Of a stretch of DNA of 64,000 bases, positions 56,428-63,291 are shown piece by piece. The notes below the pieces were generated by a model. It made no database searches. It was not told where the DNA came from and saw nothing but the letters and a program-made list of their open reading frames with translations. Where the stretch lies: contig JAOAAU010000007.1 of assembly GCA_026418695.1 (NCBI GenBank), forward strand, positions 47,818 through 111,817. Direction: 5' to 3'. The number at the start of each line of letters is the position of its first letter. The first letter of the stretch is position 1. This DNA is from Clostridia bacterium (GTDB taxonomy: Bacteria > Bacillota > Clostridia > Acetivibrionales > JAFADI01). The position numbers and the translations under genes were made by a program.

Positions 56428-56667
56428 TCATTCACTGTTGTCATCGGCTCCGTTTGTTTTTCCATCGTCAACAAACTCCAAAATATCTCCCGGCTGACAA
56501 TCCAACGCCTTGCAGATTGCTTCCAGTGTTGAAAACCGAATGGCTTTTGCCTTGTTGTTTTTTAAAATTGACAGGTTGGCCAATGTCAAATCGATCTTTG
56601 CGGCAAGCTCAGAAGAGCTAATTTTTCGTTTGGCCATCATAACATCCAAATTTACTATAATCGACAT
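56428..56667 (-). CDS. Small XRE-type helix-turn-helix regulator (YozG-like)
   Basis: A 79-aa protein made of one Cro/C1 helix-turn-helix: IIVNLDVMMAKRKISSSELAAKIDLTLANLSILKNNKAKAIRFSTLEAICKALDCQPGDILEF. This is the YozG/YozF subgroup typically paired with a DUF2975 membrane protein, which is encoded just upstream with a 13-bp gap. The ATG at 56667 is used (GGAGG six bases upstream); the track begins at GTG two codons earlier. The acidic tail (DDGKTNGADDNSE) is variable. Confidence 0.94.
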   Translation of the reverse strand: MSIIVNLDVMMAKRKISSSELAAKIDLTLANLSILKNNKAKAIRFSTLEAICKALDCQPGDILEFVDDGKTNGADDNSE

Positions 56668-56680
56668 ATCCACCCTCCGG

Positions 56681-57193
56681 TCATATGGTTAGATCATTTT
56701 CTTCTTTATACTTTACCGCCTGCTTGAAAACCTCTGCCAGAATAATGGTAAAAAGGCCGGCAATGATGAATACCATCGTCAGGATAATGGTTAGAAATGT
56801 ATTGAAGGTAAAGATTTTAATTATGTAGCATATGGAAATTCCAAAGGATGATACGGCTATTCTGTGAAGACACTTTACATTCTCTATGATAAACGGATCC
56901 TTTTTATTCAGGCTTTTAAATATTTTCCGCATGTCATGCAAGATCATAATGCTGAAAAAACCTGAAATATACAGGAAACCCATGAGAAACCAGTAGCTTT
57001 CCGTATGAACCATGAAGAGATTTGTTTGATTCGCCCTGAAATATTTAATATTTTCAACTCCGTAAATCATGCCCAAGTACCATTTTAATGTAATGGGTAA
57101 GCTTAACCAAATCGCTGTTCCTCCAACAAACACCAGGTCAAGAAACCGTTTTACGACTCCAGTCAAGCCTTTCTCGCCGATTATGGATATCAT
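56681..57193 (-). CDS. DUF2975 membrane protein
   Basis: A 170-aa protein with four membrane helices and the DUF2975 pattern, including the central FKSLNKKDPFIIENVKCLHRIAVSSFGISICY and the C-terminal IIAGLFTIILAEVFKQAVKYKEENDLTI. The last segment leads straight into the partner XRE gene, a common pair in Bacillota. The membrane protein may hold or release the regulator. No stated function is known. The ribosome site is weak. Confidence 0.92.
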   Translation of the reverse strand: MISIIGEKGLTGVVKRFLDLVFVGGTAIWLSLPITLKWYLGMIYGVENIKYFRANQTNLFMVHTESYWFLMGFLYISGFFSIMILHDMRKIFKSLNKKDPFIIENVKCLHRIAVSSFGISICYIIKIFTFNTFLTIILTMVFIIAGLFTIILAEVFKQAVKYKEENDLTI

Positions 57194-57297: not shown

Positions 57298-57651
57298 TTA
57301 TACCAATCTGTCCACCAATGCCTTCATGACCTCATTAAAGGGCATTCCCCCTATTTGATCCAGCATTTTTTCCAGTTCGCTCTTTTCTTTTAGTGAACCG
57401 GAAAGAACAATCTGAACGGACTGATCCTTATCTACCAGGACCGATTCTACCTCAAAAACTCCCCCCAGGACTCCCCCAATGATTAATGCCTGGGAAGGAG
57501 TCATCGTCATTGTAGAATTGTTTTTTTCTGTTCCCATATTCTCCTGCAGGTTGCCGTACTCGACTTCACTAGGATCAGAATCCGCGTCATAGTTTTTCAG
57601 TTGTTCCATAATTTTTTTTGTGAGAATATTCAATTCCTCAGGCGATAACAT
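57298..57651 (-). CDS. Hypothetical protein, 117 aa
   Basis: I do not recognise this protein. It starts MLSPEELNILTKKIMEQLKNYD, has a polar linker with TMTMTPSQ, a hydrophobic strand ALIIGGVLGGVFEVESVLVDKDQSVQIVLSG, and an amphipathic end ELEKMLDQIGGMPFNEVMKALVDRLV. The start has GAGGTGG seven bases upstream, which supports a real gene. It heads a cluster of unknown genes (57.3-60.5 kb), some of spore-coat-like composition. No signal peptide is present. Confidence 0.7.
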   Translation of the reverse strand: MLSPEELNILTKKIMEQLKNYDADSDPSEVEYGNLQENMGTEKNNSTMTMTPSQALIIGGVLGGVFEVESVLVDKDQSVQIVLSGSLKEKSELEKMLDQIGGMPFNEVMKALVDRLV

Positions 57652-57972: not shown

Positions 57973-58452
57973 CTATACTGCATTATGAACAAACGAAACA
58001 ATAGCAGCAATCGGTATATCCGTTACAGATCCAACGGTATATACGGGCACCGCATCCCAACCGCCTGCCGATACCGCGCCTACTTCACTGGCTGGTAAAA
58101 TAGGTCCAGGGACCATACCTGGGCCATAGCCTCCTCCATATGGGTTATATCCCATATTTGCTCCATAAGGAGCATTTGCACCAGCTACTTTGCCTGGCCC
58201 ATAGCCATATCCGTTACCAACGTTAAAGTTACTGCAAGCATTTCCAAGTGAACATCCGGGAGGAGGCCCTATTCTTGTCAGCAATCTTACAAAACTCTCA
58301 GTGACAGAAAGAATAACTCCTGTAAAACCTGATCCTGATTCGCCTCCGCTGGAAGTGAAAATAGTTACGGTTTCGCCGATGTACCTTGTCAAAAGTGCTG
58401 CAAAATTCCCGCCTGGAAATGTGCCAACACCTCCATATACCCCATCAGACAT
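57973..58452 (-). CDS. Glycine-rich protein of a new-looking family, spore-coat-like (paralog A)
   Basis: A 159-aa protein from ATG 58452 (AAAGGAG eight bases upstream). Residues about 27-70 hold YIGETVTIFTSSGGESGSGFTGVILSVTESFVRLLTRIGPPPGCSLGNAC, a small beta-rich domain resembling an Sm/SH3-type barrel (my inference). Then comes a Gly/Pro/Tyr/Asn-rich stretch (NGYGYGPGKVAGANAPYGANMGYNPYGGGYGPG) like those of spore coat or exosporium proteins, and a conserved tail TDIPIAAIVSFVHNAV. The second copy of the domain and tail is encoded at 59035-59670. The two Cys in CSLGNAC may cross-link. Secretion signal: none. Confidence 0.8.
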   Translation of the reverse strand: MSDGVYGGVGTFPGGNFAALLTRYIGETVTIFTSSGGESGSGFTGVILSVTESFVRLLTRIGPPPGCSLGNACSNFNVGNGYGYGPGKVAGANAPYGANMGYNPYGGGYGPGMVPGPILPASEVGAVSAGGWDAVPVYTVGSVTDIPIAAIVSFVHNAV

Positions 58453-58605
58453 ATATCTCGCTCCTTTCAATGATGTTAGGGATTATGTTTTCTATATATA
58501 TTATGTCTACTGAGTTTTTTATGTTCCTGATCCGATTTGATTTTTCATAAATTGTTTTAGAAAAATTGAAAGGGCAATGATTAAAACAGTGATCCGAATA
58601 AATAC

Positions 58606-58968
58606 TTAATTCTCCGCCAGATTAATCCGAACTCTTTCAAAGCCTTCCATCTCTTTGATCCTTTCAGTTGAAAGGACATACATATCAAGGGTAATTTTCT
58701 TGGAATTATCCAATTCTTCACCATCCAGAGAAACAATATCAAACCCGATGATATTGTAAAGGTAAAAGGGAATAATACTTCCTGAACCATCCTGACAGTT
58801 GAATTCCAGTCTTTCAATCCTTGAATCCACCGGATTGGTCCAACAGGGCTTAAAGCCTATTCCTACAATCCTTCCATTGACTCCATAGTCATTGCTTGTT
58901 AGCCGGCAGCCTTTCTTCGCCAGCTGAGTGATCACCGTTTTCAAGTTCTCGATTTCCCTGTAATTCAT
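58606..58968 (-). CDS. Hypothetical protein, 120 aa
   Basis: I cannot place this protein. It begins MNYREIENLKTVITQLAKKGCRLTSNDYGVNGRIVGIGFKPCW and continues with alternating strands (LEFNCQDGSGSIIPFYLYNIIGFDIVSLDGEELD) to FERVRINLAEN. It looks like one compact alpha/beta domain, with no signal or membrane part. GGGGTG precedes the ATG by ten bases. It lies between the two paralogous genes on the minus strand. Confidence 0.65.
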   Translation of the reverse strand: MNYREIENLKTVITQLAKKGCRLTSNDYGVNGRIVGIGFKPCWTNPVDSRIERLEFNCQDGSGSIIPFYLYNIIGFDIVSLDGEELDNSKKITLDMYVLSTERIKEMEGFERVRINLAEN

Positions 58969-59034
58969 GATAGATATTCACCCCATTGTTCAGCCGATTC
59001 ATAATTTATATTCAAAATTGCAGCAAGCTCAATC

Positions 59035-59670
59035 ATGAACTCCCGTAAAGTATTCCTTAATATTTTATGTCCCGTAAACCGATTATGTTCCATAGCATTG
59101 GAAATTCCATGCCTTCTAACCCTCAATAAAAGTAACATTCTGTTGGCTGTGGGATATGATAATAATAGGAACTGGAAATTGCGGGTGAAACAATTGCTAG
59201 GATTTAGAAGAAAGCGCAGGTTCGATCATCGGCAACACAGCAGACAAAGGTTCTCCGAAGGAGTTCCTCAAATAAACAGCAATATTCCCCTAAATACAAT
59301 CCAAGATAAACCTTCAGTAATATCATTATTGAAAGAGTCAACCTCACAGCATAATTTTTCCAACCATATGTCCGCATATATCGGGGAAACCGTTACTATA
59401 TTTGTCAGGGGTGGAGGCGCCTCCGGAATGGGCTTTACAGGTATACTACTTCATGTGAATGATGAATACGTTCATCTGATCACCAGGATCGGCCCACCCC
59501 CTGCATGCTCGTTGGGAAACGGATGTTTCCGGCCTCATTATCCGGGGATTAGCCCCATGCTATATTATTCAAGGTATTTCAGCTGGTTACATAATGGGGT
59601 AAAAGCAATTGGTTCTGCAGCTTATATTCCCGTAAACAAAATCGCATCTTTTGTCCACAACAATGCTTAG
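59035..59670 (+). CDS. Second member of the YIGETVTIF family (paralog B), start uncertain
   Basis: The C-terminal 100 residues repeat the domain of the 57973-58452 protein: YIGETVTIFVRGGGASGMGFTGILLHVNDEYVHLITRIGPPPACSLGNGC, then a shorter spacer (HYPGISPMLYYSRYF) and IPVNKIASFVHNNA. The first 110 residues are basic and unlike paralog A. None of the ATG, GTG or TTG starts in frame has a ribosome site. A GAAGGAG lies eight bases before an in-frame ATA (59272), so the true N-terminus is open, or the gene has lost its start. A terminator follows. Confidence 0.65.
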   Translation: MNSRKVFLNILCPVNRLCSIALEIPCLLTLNKSNILLAVGYDNNRNWKLRVKQLLGFRRKRRFDHRQHSRQRFSEGVPQINSNIPLNTIQDKPSVISLLKESTSQHNFSNHMSAYIGETVTIFVRGGGASGMGFTGILLHVNDEYVHLITRIGPPPACSLGNGCFRPHYPGISPMLYYSRYFSWLHNGVKAIGSAAYIPVNKIASFVHNNA

Positions 59671-59752: not shown

Positions 59753-60499
59753 TTATATTCTTATATCAATATTCATTTGGCCTGCCTGTTCTTTTTGCTG
59801 CTCCTCTTTTTCCTTCATCGGATTACGATAGTCAGATTTACTCTCAAAATCTTTTTCCGATCTATTCAATGCTAAGAGTTCTTCCTCTTTTTCATCCTGG
59901 ATTTTCTTTCCCATATCATCCTTTCTGGCCTTTTCAATTTCCTCTTGAGCTTTCTTTTGGAGTTCCGGCATCTCCTTCTCCATCTCACGGATACGTTTTT
60001 CATTTTCTTCACGCATTTCCCGTTTCATTTTCGCCTTTGCGCCTGAAAGACTTCTAGCCTCATCAACCCTGATTTCATAGGAAAGTATTTTGTTATCGGA
60101 TTCCAAATTGTTTTTCATTTTCCCAACCATTTTGATGTTGCTATAGGTGGCTTTGGATGAGATCAAATGATCTAATGAAGAATTCGTACTCCCATCTGCT
60201 TGGATTTTATTGTTCTCGTTACTTTCCTCGATTAGCTTATTCTGTTCAGTCGGGTTGTTTTGCTTCTTAAACTTCTCTGCCTGTTTTTGCGCAATTTGTG
60301 CACTAATGTCCTCCAATTGCATTTCAAGCGCCTTCGCCTTCTCTTCCTTCAATGTATTGTTCTTTTCATTTTCCTGTACTTTTCTCAATTCTTCTTCAAT
60401 TCTCTTCTTCTGTTCCGTCAGGATTTTAATTTCCCGGTCGTGACCATCCGCAGCCAACGCAGTATAGGTGGCTGATACAGGCACTGTGCCAATTCTCAT
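59753..60499 (-). CDS. Coiled-coil protein, FlxA-like, unknown role
   Basis: A 248-aa protein, highly charged. A short hydrophobic start (MRIGTVPVSATYTALAADGHD) is followed by a coiled coil at about 22-85 (REIKILTEQKKRIEEELRKVQENEKNNTLKEEKAKALEMQLEDISAQIAQKQAEKF), a polar linker, and a second coiled-coil region at about 150-225 rich in Glu, Lys and Arg. The first coil resembles the FlxA family of small proteins. No membrane segment. AGGAGG stands seven bases before the ATG. Its role is unknown; the neighbourhood hints at sporulation or envelope work. Confidence 0.75.
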   Translation of the reverse strand: MRIGTVPVSATYTALAADGHDREIKILTEQKKRIEEELRKVQENEKNNTLKEEKAKALEMQLEDISAQIAQKQAEKFKKQNNPTEQNKLIEESNENNKIQADGSTNSSLDHLISSKATYSNIKMVGKMKNNLESDNKILSYEIRVDEARSLSGAKAKMKREMREENEKRIREMEKEMPELQKKAQEEIEKARKDDMGKKIQDEKEEELLALNRSEKDFESKSDYRNPMKEKEEQQKEQAGQMNIDIRI

Positions 60500-60697: not shown

Positions 60698-60737
60698 CAA
60701 AAAGGCCATTGATGAGTATCAACAGCCATATCCTTTT
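60698..60737 (-). terminator. Terminator at the end of the SecA-like gene
   Basis: On the minus strand AAAGG...GGC..TTGAT-actc-ATCAA..GCC..CCTTTTTG forms a nested hairpin (TTGAT/ATCAA inside GGC/GCC inside AAAGG/CCTTT) with a T-run. It begins right at the stop codon. Confidence 0.75.
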
Positions 60738-63162
60738 ATCCTTCTCTATTCTTCTTTTTACTTTTCTTTCTAAACCGATTATACAATAAGGATGGCAATA
60801 GTAGCGGCCAGGAAATCCCCACTGCTATAGAAGCAAATCCTAAATTCTTGCCGCTGATCATATATAGTCCCGGATTATTTTTGAAGTAGTCATCGCTGAT
60901 TAAATACGTCCAGGTAGATGTAGGTCCCTTCAGACCTTCCTTCTCAAAATCTACTCCGTCTTTGGTAATGGTCAATCTCCTGAAGGTTTCAACAACCTCA
61001 AGCTCTATTTTATCCATTAATCCGTCAAAAGCTTCAAATACCTGCTTTGCAAATTCATCCAAAGGATCTTTTCCTGCAATGCTTACAAGATGAATCCCTT
61101 CCCGGAGATAGCTAACATAATCCAAGTGATCCGCCCAGCCCTTATCTATATGGAAGAGCATCAACTGCTTTTCGATACGCTGCATTACTTCTTTTCCGGC
61201 TACAGAGCATGCCCAATGATGCTTTTCAGGTTCTTTTTCCTTTAGGAGTGCCAGTTCTTCTTGATCCATCAGAATCTTCCGGCGTCTTTGATGGAGAATT
61301 TTTCTCTGTTCTTCGACGATATAGGCATATTTCCTTAAAGTTTTTCTAATCTCAAAGTTCTGTCCTTCAACGACTTTTTGTATATGGCTGATTCTCTGTC
61401 TAATCACTGGGTTATCAATCGGCTGCTCCTGTTTCAGCGTCTGAAACTGTTCAGGTAAAGCTTTCTTTATTCCAAACTTTATAATGAGATCATCTTCCAA
61501 GCTGATAAAAAATCTTGAAGAACCCGGATCCCCCTGCCGCCCGGCTCTTCCTCTCAGTTGGTTGTCTATCCGAAGACTTTCGTGGCGGTTCGTCCCGATA
61601 ACATACAATCCTCCCAGTCCTGCAATCCGACCCCTATCCTGCTCATTTGGTCCTCCAAGGCGGATATCCGTCCCACGACCAGCCATGTTTGTTGATACCG
61701 TAACAGCACCAAATTCACCTGCACGTGCAATGATCTCTGCTTCCAGTTCATCATTTTTTGCATTTAATACATTGCATTCAACTCCTGCCGCTTTTAGTGC
61801 ATCTGCAAGCATAATCGATTCTTCAATACTTGCTGTACCAATCAGTATGGGACGTCCAATGGCGTGTACCTGCACCGCTTCATTGACAATTGCTCTATAT
61901 TTTGCTTCCTTATGTGTAAATACTATATCCGGATAATCTATACGAATGCATTGTCGGTTCGTCGGAACAGTGAGAATATCCACTCCATAAAACTCCATCA
62001 GCTCATCAGCAGAAGTCCTTGCAGTAGCCGTCATTCCACATATTTTCGGATATTGTCCCAGGAAATACTGCAAGGTGGTGGATCCCAGTATCCTTCCCGT
62101 AAAGTCTGCTTCAAGTCCTTCCTTGGCTTCAACCGCAGTTTGAAGTCCATCCGGCCAATGCCGCTTATCTGCCACCCTTCCGGTAAATTCATCTACAAGT
62201 TCAATTTTCCCATCTCGTACGATATAATCAATATCCCTTTGTAAAAGCGCTTCAGCATGAAGTGCACTATTAACAGCGCAAAGAAGAGAAATATTCTCTG
62301 CTGAATAAATGTTTCCGCATCCCAGGGCTTGCTCAATCTTGTCTGCCCCGGAATCCGTAAGGAAAACATTTCGCTGATACTCATCCGTGTCATAGTCAAG
62401 CCCTGGAATCAGTTTTTTGATGATCTCTGCGAGATGAGCAAAGCTGTCTTTTTCCGGAGCGACACTGCCTGCAATAATCAACGGTACCCTTGCTTCATCA
62501 ATGAGGATGGAATCTGCTTCATCAATAATAGCACAATGAAATGGTCTTTGAACCAATTCATCAGGGCTATAGCACAAGAAACTCCTCAAATAATCAAATC
62601 CCGCTTCCTTGGCAGTCAGGTAGGTTATATCCGCATTATATGCTTTCCTTCGGTCACCAGCGCTCATACCTTCCTGAACAAATCCTACTGACAAGCCCAA
62701 CAGATAATAAACGGGCCCCATCCACTCAGCATCCCTTTTCGCCAGATAATCATTAAAGGTTAGTACATGAACTCCCTTCTCCGTCAAAGCATTCAGATAG
62801 GCACAAAAGACTGCGGATAAAGTTTTACCTTCTCCTGTTTGCATTTCTATAAGTTTTCCTTTATGCATACCTATCGCCCCTAGCAGTTGTACATCAAAAG
62901 GCTGAATTTTCAAGGTCCTGCTCGCTGCCCCTTTTACCAGCGCATAGGCCTCCACAAGAAGTTCATCCAGGGTTACACCCTTCAAAGCCCTTTTTTTCAG
63001 ATGCCTTGATCTTTCTAGCAGTTCGCTGTTCTCTAGTTTTGAAAAATCATAGCTATTAATAGATCGTATGATCGGTTGATAAGACTTTAATTCCTTTTCA
63101 GAAGTATCAATATTGGTATACTTCCCTATGGTTTCAATCATTTTCAATGATAAATTAGACAT
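60736..63162 (-). CDS. secA2: SecA-family translocation ATPase (second SecA, membrane-anchored)
   Basis: About 808 aa from ATG 63162 (GGAGG eight bases upstream; the track's start is 13 codons earlier). It has all SecA motor motifs: Walker A EMQTGEGKTLSAVF (about 101), DEADSILIDEARVPLIIAG (about 214), GMTATARTSADE, TVSTNMAGRGTDIRLGG (about 488) and QLRGRAGRQGDPGSSRFFISLEDDL (about 538), then a shortened helical scaffold. The C-terminal SEC-C zinc motif of housekeeping SecA is absent. Instead a hydrophobic helix FASIAVGISWPLLLPSLLYN and a KKSKKKNR tail close the protein. It probably drives export of a subset of proteins, as SecA2 does elsewhere. No SecY2 or glycosylation genes are near. The symbol follows family practice. 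Confidence 0.88.
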   Translation of the reverse strand: MSNLSLKMIETIGKYTNIDTSEKELKSYQPIIRSINSYDFSKLENSELLERSRHLKKRALKGVTLDELLVEAYALVKGAASRTLKIQPFDVQLLGAIGMHKGKLIEMQTGEGKTLSAVFCAYLNALTEKGVHVLTFNDYLAKRDAEWMGPVYYLLGLSVGFVQEGMSAGDRRKAYNADITYLTAKEAGFDYLRSFLCYSPDELVQRPFHCAIIDEADSILIDEARVPLIIAGSVAPEKDSFAHLAEIIKKLIPGLDYDTDEYQRNVFLTDSGADKIEQALGCGNIYSAENISLLCAVNSALHAEALLQRDIDYIVRDGKIELVDEFTGRVADKRHWPDGLQTAVEAKEGLEADFTGRILGSTTLQYFLGQYPKICGMTATARTSADELMEFYGVDILTVPTNRQCIRIDYPDIVFTHKEAKYRAIVNEAVQVHAIGRPILIGTASIEESIMLADALKAAGVECNVLNAKNDELEAEIIARAGEFGAVTVSTNMAGRGTDIRLGGPNEQDRGRIAGLGGLYVIGTNRHESLRIDNQLRGRAGRQGDPGSSRFFISLEDDLIIKFGIKKALPEQFQTLKQEQPIDNPVIRQRISHIQKVVEGQNFEIRKTLRKYAYIVEEQRKILHQRRRKILMDQEELALLKEKEPEKHHWACSVAGKEVMQRIEKQLMLFHIDKGWADHLDYVSYLREGIHLVSIAGKDPLDEFAKQVFEAFDGLMDKIELEVVETFRRLTITKDGVDFEKEGLKGPTSTWTYLISDDYFKNNPGLYMISGKNLGFASIAVGISWPLLLPSLLYNRFRKKSKKKNREG

Positions 63163-63291
63163 AAAAATATCCTCCGGCAAATTTAATTTTGTAGACTTCA
63201 TTGTTCACGACAGATTTTTTATAAATCCTCGCTCAATGAAATACCTACCTCTATTGACCCTTCTCTAAAGGCAGGGTTCAACTAGCGGTTC

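Follow-up and report, generated by a model that had tools for sequence, protein, structure and literature searches.

An unnamed, multi-copy family of predicted Sm-like proteins in Clostridia, probably late sporulation proteins of the spore coat or exosporium

Two systems of Bacillus are the closest described counterparts of the proteins reported here. GerQ (Spore_GerQ, PF09671) is a sporulation protein with a core of five strands plus helices and a flexible region outside this core; it forms C9 rings that are stacked into filaments, located in the inner coat or at the inner face of the exosporium (PMC11405398; 8zra). MnxE and MnxF, two different spore-associated small subunits encoded by neighbouring genes, belong to the Bacillus manganese oxidase complex, in which they assemble as a hexamer bound to a multicopper oxidase (9bxa; PMC5622069). 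Of the 70-odd coat proteins of Bacillus subtilis, few are conserved in C. difficile (PMC3789822), and many clostridial coat components are thus likely still unnamed.

The window analysed here, a stretch of 64,000 nucleotides from a Clostridia bacterium, encodes two related small proteins on opposite strands, P0001 (A type) and P0002 (B type), on either side of a gene that we call X (Table 1). We consider it probable that A, B and X are made by the mother cell late in sporulation and that A and B, which have a predicted Sm-like scaffold, play a structural role in the spore coat or exosporium.

Table 1. Features of the A/X/B locus, with positions in the window.
Feature	Position	Strand	Remarks
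A-type gene P0001	57973..58452	-	159 aa, short N-terminus, Sm-like barrel (predicted), Gly/Tyr/Pro-rich insertion
P0001 residues 14-62, N-terminal helix and strands 1-3 (Sm1-like half)	58267..58413	-	AlphaFold2 model
P0001 conserved Pro/Cys loop PPPGCSLGNACS	58231..58266	-	
P0001 variable Gly/Tyr/Pro/Asn-rich insertion, between strands 3 and 4	58048..58230	-	model confidence low
P0001 VGSVTDIPIAAIVSFVHN, strands 4-5 (Sm2-like half; the 'tail' of the sequence-only reading)	57982..58035	-	AlphaFold2 model
A gene sigma-K-type promoter, AC-N17-CATAATAT	58498..58524	-	pattern match
Gene X, conserved partner family	58606..58968	-	120 aa, without Pfam entry
Gene X sigma-K-type promoter, AC-N17-CATAAAAT	59062..59088	-	pattern match
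B gene probable promoter, GTAAC...TATGATA	59132..59161	+	variant specific to B-type genes
B-type gene P0002, from probable TTG start	59194..59670	+	158 aa, basic N-terminus LLGFRRKRRF, linker, barrel (predicted) with short insertion
P0002 helix and strands 1-3 (Sm1-like half)	59353..59493	+	AlphaFold2 model
P0002 loop PPPACSLGNGC	59494..59526	+	
P0002 IGSAAYIPVNKIASFVHN, strands 4-5 (Sm2-like half)	59608..59661	+	AlphaFold2 model

A sequence-only reading of the window had noticed two open reading frames with shared motifs and had proposed that they represent an unnamed family. Both frames lie where it had placed them, and P0001 and P0002 are indeed paralogues, with 51 of 142 aligned residues identical (BLASTP E = 3e-24). 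The absence of a name holds as well: Pfam, NCBIfam and PHROGs returned no curated match for either protein and sub-threshold scores only, the best in Pfam being that of the RimP C-terminal SH3 domain (PF17384; 15.1 bits for a cut-off of 26.3), and none of 30 family members tested had a Pfam match. DUF2642 (PF10842), which had been suggested for a comparison of folds, was rejected, as these 30 members did not match it and none of 60 relatives carries it, the comparison being made by sequence profile only. Searches of the PDB by sequence gave chance matches only, and a phage or plasmid origin was rejected, as searches of phages, plasmids and viral contigs gave no match to the family.

Homologues are widespread and extend beyond one strain. 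Whole genomes of 60 relatives were searched, and 30 of them carry the family, usually in several copies (two to seven per carrier genome), with long-spacer, A-type relatives likewise present in 30 of the 60; the genome under study has four members, three of A type and one of B type. A scan of a genome collection yielded 232 coding stretches, of which 79 loci were kept, hosted by Acetivibrio, Ruminiclostridium, Defluviitalea, Alkalibaculum, several Clostridium species and many MAGs. The family is spread across the Clostridia (Acetivibrio, Ruminiclostridium, Clostridium, Defluviitalea), and 163 distinct members were extracted from the fetched loci.

Two main types, A and B, were distinguished among these members. 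In A-type proteins a short N-terminus is followed by the motif YIGETVTIFTxSGGxSGxGFTGV and by the loop PPxCSLGNxC; after a spacer rich in Gly and Tyr, they end in AGGWxxxPVYTVGSVTDIPxxxIVSFVHNAV. B-type proteins have a basic N-terminus, a linker, a domain as in A and a short spacer, and an extra group in Ruminiclostridium is B-like with a divergent loop. A CX5C element after the Pro/Cys loop is kept in 145 of the 163 members. The N-termini of P0001 and P0002 had been described as wholly different, which is correct, but each is typical of its own subfamily. Loci L177-L180, from a genus outside the class Clostridia, hold a compact and distinct branch of the family, with members of 122 aa that have CCPP ahead of strand 4, the genes being preceded by CATAATATG or a near match.

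The plus-strand gene was initially read as the whole open reading frame 59035-59670. This frame exists, but the gene very probably starts near 59194, at a TTG with GGGTG upstream, and its product would read (M)LGFRRKRRF, since B-type relatives begin with similar basic motifs (MFFFRRR, MLGIRGRNRR) and since a B-specific promoter-like element falls inside the longer frame. Directly beyond the B gene, a FlxA-like protein is encoded (59753-60499, minus strand; Pfam E 1.3e-7), followed by a second SecA of 821 aa (60736-63201, minus strand); the longer SecA of this genome (open frame of 915 aa) is found on another contig, so that the SecA of the window looks like an accessory SecA near coat-type genes. 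On the other side, the A gene is adjoined by a gene for a 117-aa protein without family match (57298-57651, minus strand), and a small HTH_26 regulator lies beside a DUF2975 membrane protein (56428-57193, minus strand). Elsewhere in the window, at about 5300-34400, a long gene run resembles, by reading, a set for the breakdown of uronates and pectin; TRAP and ABC transporters are included, as are several two-component pairs.

Gene X had been seen as one unknown gene between the two copies. It has no named family, as no relatives of X were found in Pfam or in the PDB, and no profile link was found between X and A/B; but it is conserved and linked to the family rather than incidental. Indeed, X is present in 24 of the 60 relatives, all of them carriers of the family (24 of 30 carriers vs none of the 30 non-carriers, Fisher 3e-11). 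Counted by genus, the figures are 11 of 13 carrier genera vs 0 of 19 others (6e-7), and in the class sample X was found in seven genomes, each of which has A/B members too. X adjoins A directly in most loci where it is found, and in some genomes it is sited elsewhere, still only in carriers, which indicates a link beyond mere neighbourhood.

The upstream regions were searched for the promoter pattern AC-N15-17-CATA...T. The sigma-K promoters of C. difficile carry AC at -35, and the sigma-K promoter of sigK itself has CATATAAT at -10 (PMC3789822). The pattern precedes 70% of the 163 members. Among 833 control ORFs taken from these loci it precedes 1%, and in shuffled sequences it occurs in 4%, the shuffled figure being the safer baseline because the control ORFs are slightly less AT-rich than the regions of the members and may include non-genes; the figures for the A group are 73% vs 3.5%. 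Similarly, 15 of 17 upstream regions of X (88%) show the pattern vs 4% in shuffles. Within the window, A and X both display AC at -35 and a CATA-type -10 box at the appropriate spacing, and B has a variant at -10. This variant, AAC-N14-22-TATGATA, was found in 10 of 16 B genes vs 0.2 expected in shuffles; the B element GTAAC...TATGATA(TA) is related to, yet distinct from, the sigma-K type. The -10 boxes of sigma-E and sigma-K are nearly identical, and the assignment to sigma-K thus rests on the AC at -35 and the spacing. The genome itself encodes SigK, which scores over the curated cut-off.

Published expression data for C. thermocellum provide independent evidence for a sporulation-linked expression of A genes. 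Two long-spacer members occur in this species. One locus (L064) holds the exact published promoters of rsgI9 (Cthe_0260) and sigI2 (Cthe_0268) with seven genes between them, so that, by counting, X corresponds to Cthe_0263 and A to Cthe_0264. At the second locus (L063), a cohesin protein is encoded directly before A; it matches OlpC, Cthe_0452, and A is therefore Cthe_0453, an identification that rests on one anchor. A comparison of cultures at 12 h and 37 h reported 73 genes significant on both platforms (PMC3880215, Table 4); in switchgrass RNA-seq, Cthe_0264 and Cthe_0453, both annotated merely as 'hypothetical protein', changed by +5.07 and +5.61 log2 units at 37 h over 12 h (PMC3880215). 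Like both A genes, the coat genes CotJB (4.46) and CotS (4.49 and 4.31) were higher at 37 h, as were dipicolinate synthase (DpaA, 4.18), YunB (4.16) and YabG (4.05) (log2 units; PMC3880215). Cthe_0264 and Cthe_0453 are thus expressed late, alongside known coat genes, and no B gene could be matched among the entries of the 73-gene list (PMC3880215). The idea of a coat-like protein, which had been raised on composition, is backed by these data and by the sigma-K-type promoters.

The distribution of the family was also compared with that of SpoIVA. In the class sample, SpoIVA was found in 20 of 20 carriers vs 163 of 223 non-carriers (p = 0.005, which ignores relatedness; carriers are related to each other and the counts are not independent), and in the phylum sample in 9 of 9 tested carriers, one of which is also in the class sample. 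One carrier among the relatives (G037; 97% complete, 6% contaminated) gave no SpoIVA match. Many spore formers are devoid of the family, which is therefore not a universal spore gene.

The timing of expression late in sporulation is well supported by these observations. Late expression and sigma-K-type promoters nevertheless leave the location of the proteins unfixed, and GerQ itself facilitates germination and recruits CwlJ; A, B and X could thus act elsewhere, for instance in germination or in the lysis of the mother cell, rather than as components of the shell. We consider this unlikely, because the copy number, the composition and a small barrel without obvious catalytic site fit a structural role better.

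The small barrel with a Cys-containing, Pro-rich loop that had been suggested from the letters of the sequence was also predicted by AlphaFold2 models of A and B, built with own-locus alignments, in which 43 residues of A and 51 of B are above pLDDT 90. The predicted core of both proteins consists of a short helix, strands 1-3, a low-confidence loop and strands 4-5, which in P0001 correspond to a helix at residues 17-22 and to strands at 28-33, 43-50, 54-59, 142-147 (4) and 151-156 (5). The motifs formerly described as a 'domain' and a 'tail' are present in both, but this order of the core makes them two halves of one predicted barrel rather than separate motifs, and the differing spacers are inserted into the loop that connects strands 3 and 4. 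An N-terminal helix, five strands, Sm1 and Sm2 halves and a variable loop are features of the Sm/LSm/Hfq fold, and they are found here in the models and with Foldseek. Searched against the PDB, the models matched mainly Sm-type and related small barrels. The best match of the B domain is MnxE of the Bacillus spore manganese oxidase (E 0.005, probability 1.0), and further top matches are GerQ filaments, LSm proteins and an Hfq into which a long L4 loop has been inserted; the longer A model retrieved the same kinds with weaker scores. The best E-values for Sm-type matches range from 0.005 to 0.3 with none below 0.001, so that the predicted fold is well supported and the exact kinship is not. As such, A and B are predicted to be five-strand barrels of the Sm/LSm type.

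The five strands and helix of the GerQ core are recovered in this comparison (8zra with the B domain: probability 1.0, E 0.058, TM 0.48/0.62). By sequence, the GerQ profile PF09671 gave no match at E below 1 with P0001 or P0002. Homology to GerQ by sequence was rejected after hhalign against six GerQ matches gave a probability under 1%, the GerQ profile being thin (Neff 1.9), and A and B are therefore not filed as GerQ. A GerQ match was found in 6 genomes of the 150 in the phylum sample, and none in the genome under study. The flexible part is N-terminal in GerQ, whereas it lies between strands 3 and 4 in A. In addition, the N-terminal lysines of GerQ are cross-linked by Tgl, whereas the N-terminus of P0001, MSDGVYGGVGTFPGGNF, has no lysine.

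The two small subunits of the manganese oxidase, encoded by neighbouring genes, may parallel A and B. MnxE is the best fold match, MnxE and MnxF bind copper and form an alternating hexamer (PMC5622069), and the CX5C loop is kept in most members; A and B might thus be metal-binding accessory proteins of the spore surface, with the CX5C loop as a metal site. This interpretation seems doubtful to us: the Mnx subunits are linked to a multicopper oxidase, whereas none was recognised by eye among the recurring neighbours of A/B, and the clostridia named as hosts are anaerobes. The likeness between MnxE and the B domain is in fold only, with 12% identity in the structural alignment.

Hfq and LSm proteins have the strand order predicted for A and B, and the inserted long L4 loop of the high-ranked Hfq match is at the place of the insertion found here; unlike them, A and B are multi-copy and have a Gly/Tyr-rich insertion and a CX5C loop. 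In spite of this predicted fold and of the strongly basic N-terminus of the B type, it is very improbable that the proteins are RNA-binding regulators of sporulation, with rings of the Hfq/LSm kind acting on mRNA in the mother cell. The solved spore-associated MnxE and GerQ are among the best fold matches, and it is unusual for Hfq to have Gly/Tyr-rich insertions and to occur in two to seven copies per genome.

It had also been proposed that A and B arose by recent local duplication and inversion, a scenario that the tree does not bear out. P0001 has its closest relative, with 92% identity in 86 columns, in another taxonomic family within its order, and P0002 groups, weakly, with B-type proteins from other families. 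In this tree, 23 of 29 B-type rows fall in a group of 28 rows (support 86/77), not cleanly one group, and the alignment of 88 columns is too short to resolve the duplication history. Since the nearest relative of A and the group of B come from other families, the pair looks old rather than like a recent local duplicate. A and B are side by side in several families of the order, and divergent and convergent orders were both seen.

The reading that we favour, structural units of the coat or exosporium, would involve several steps. Sigma-K RNA polymerase would transcribe A and X in the last stage of sporulation, and B would be transcribed from the related promoter variant. The predicted loop between strands 3 and 4 carries the conserved Pro-rich element with CX5C, to which A adds a flexible insertion rich in Gly and Tyr. 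We infer that the barrels are located in the coat and build rings or filaments through edge-to-edge contacts of strands 4 and 5, in the manner of Sm-type proteins; cysteines and Gly/Tyr loops could then cross-link or decorate the shell. B may be anchored through its basic N-terminus, and X may be an obligate accessory of the shell layer. More tentatively, it is possible that A and B together form mixed Sm-type rings or filaments tiling a clostridial spore layer, with long Gly/Tyr-rich loops turned outward, CX5C elements providing cross-links and X serving as a dedicated assembly partner. If true, such mixed tiling would represent a clostridial shell that shares its fold with the Bacillus proteins GerQ and MnxE/F, although no kinship to GerQ can be detected by sequence.

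The family described here is thus a multi-copy family of cellulolytic and other clostridia, with a partner gene confined to its carriers. In C. thermocellum it comes down to concrete genes that can be tested, namely Cthe_0263, Cthe_0264 and Cthe_0453. More broadly, it suggests that Sm-type barrels recur as material of the spore shell in both Bacilli and Clostridia.
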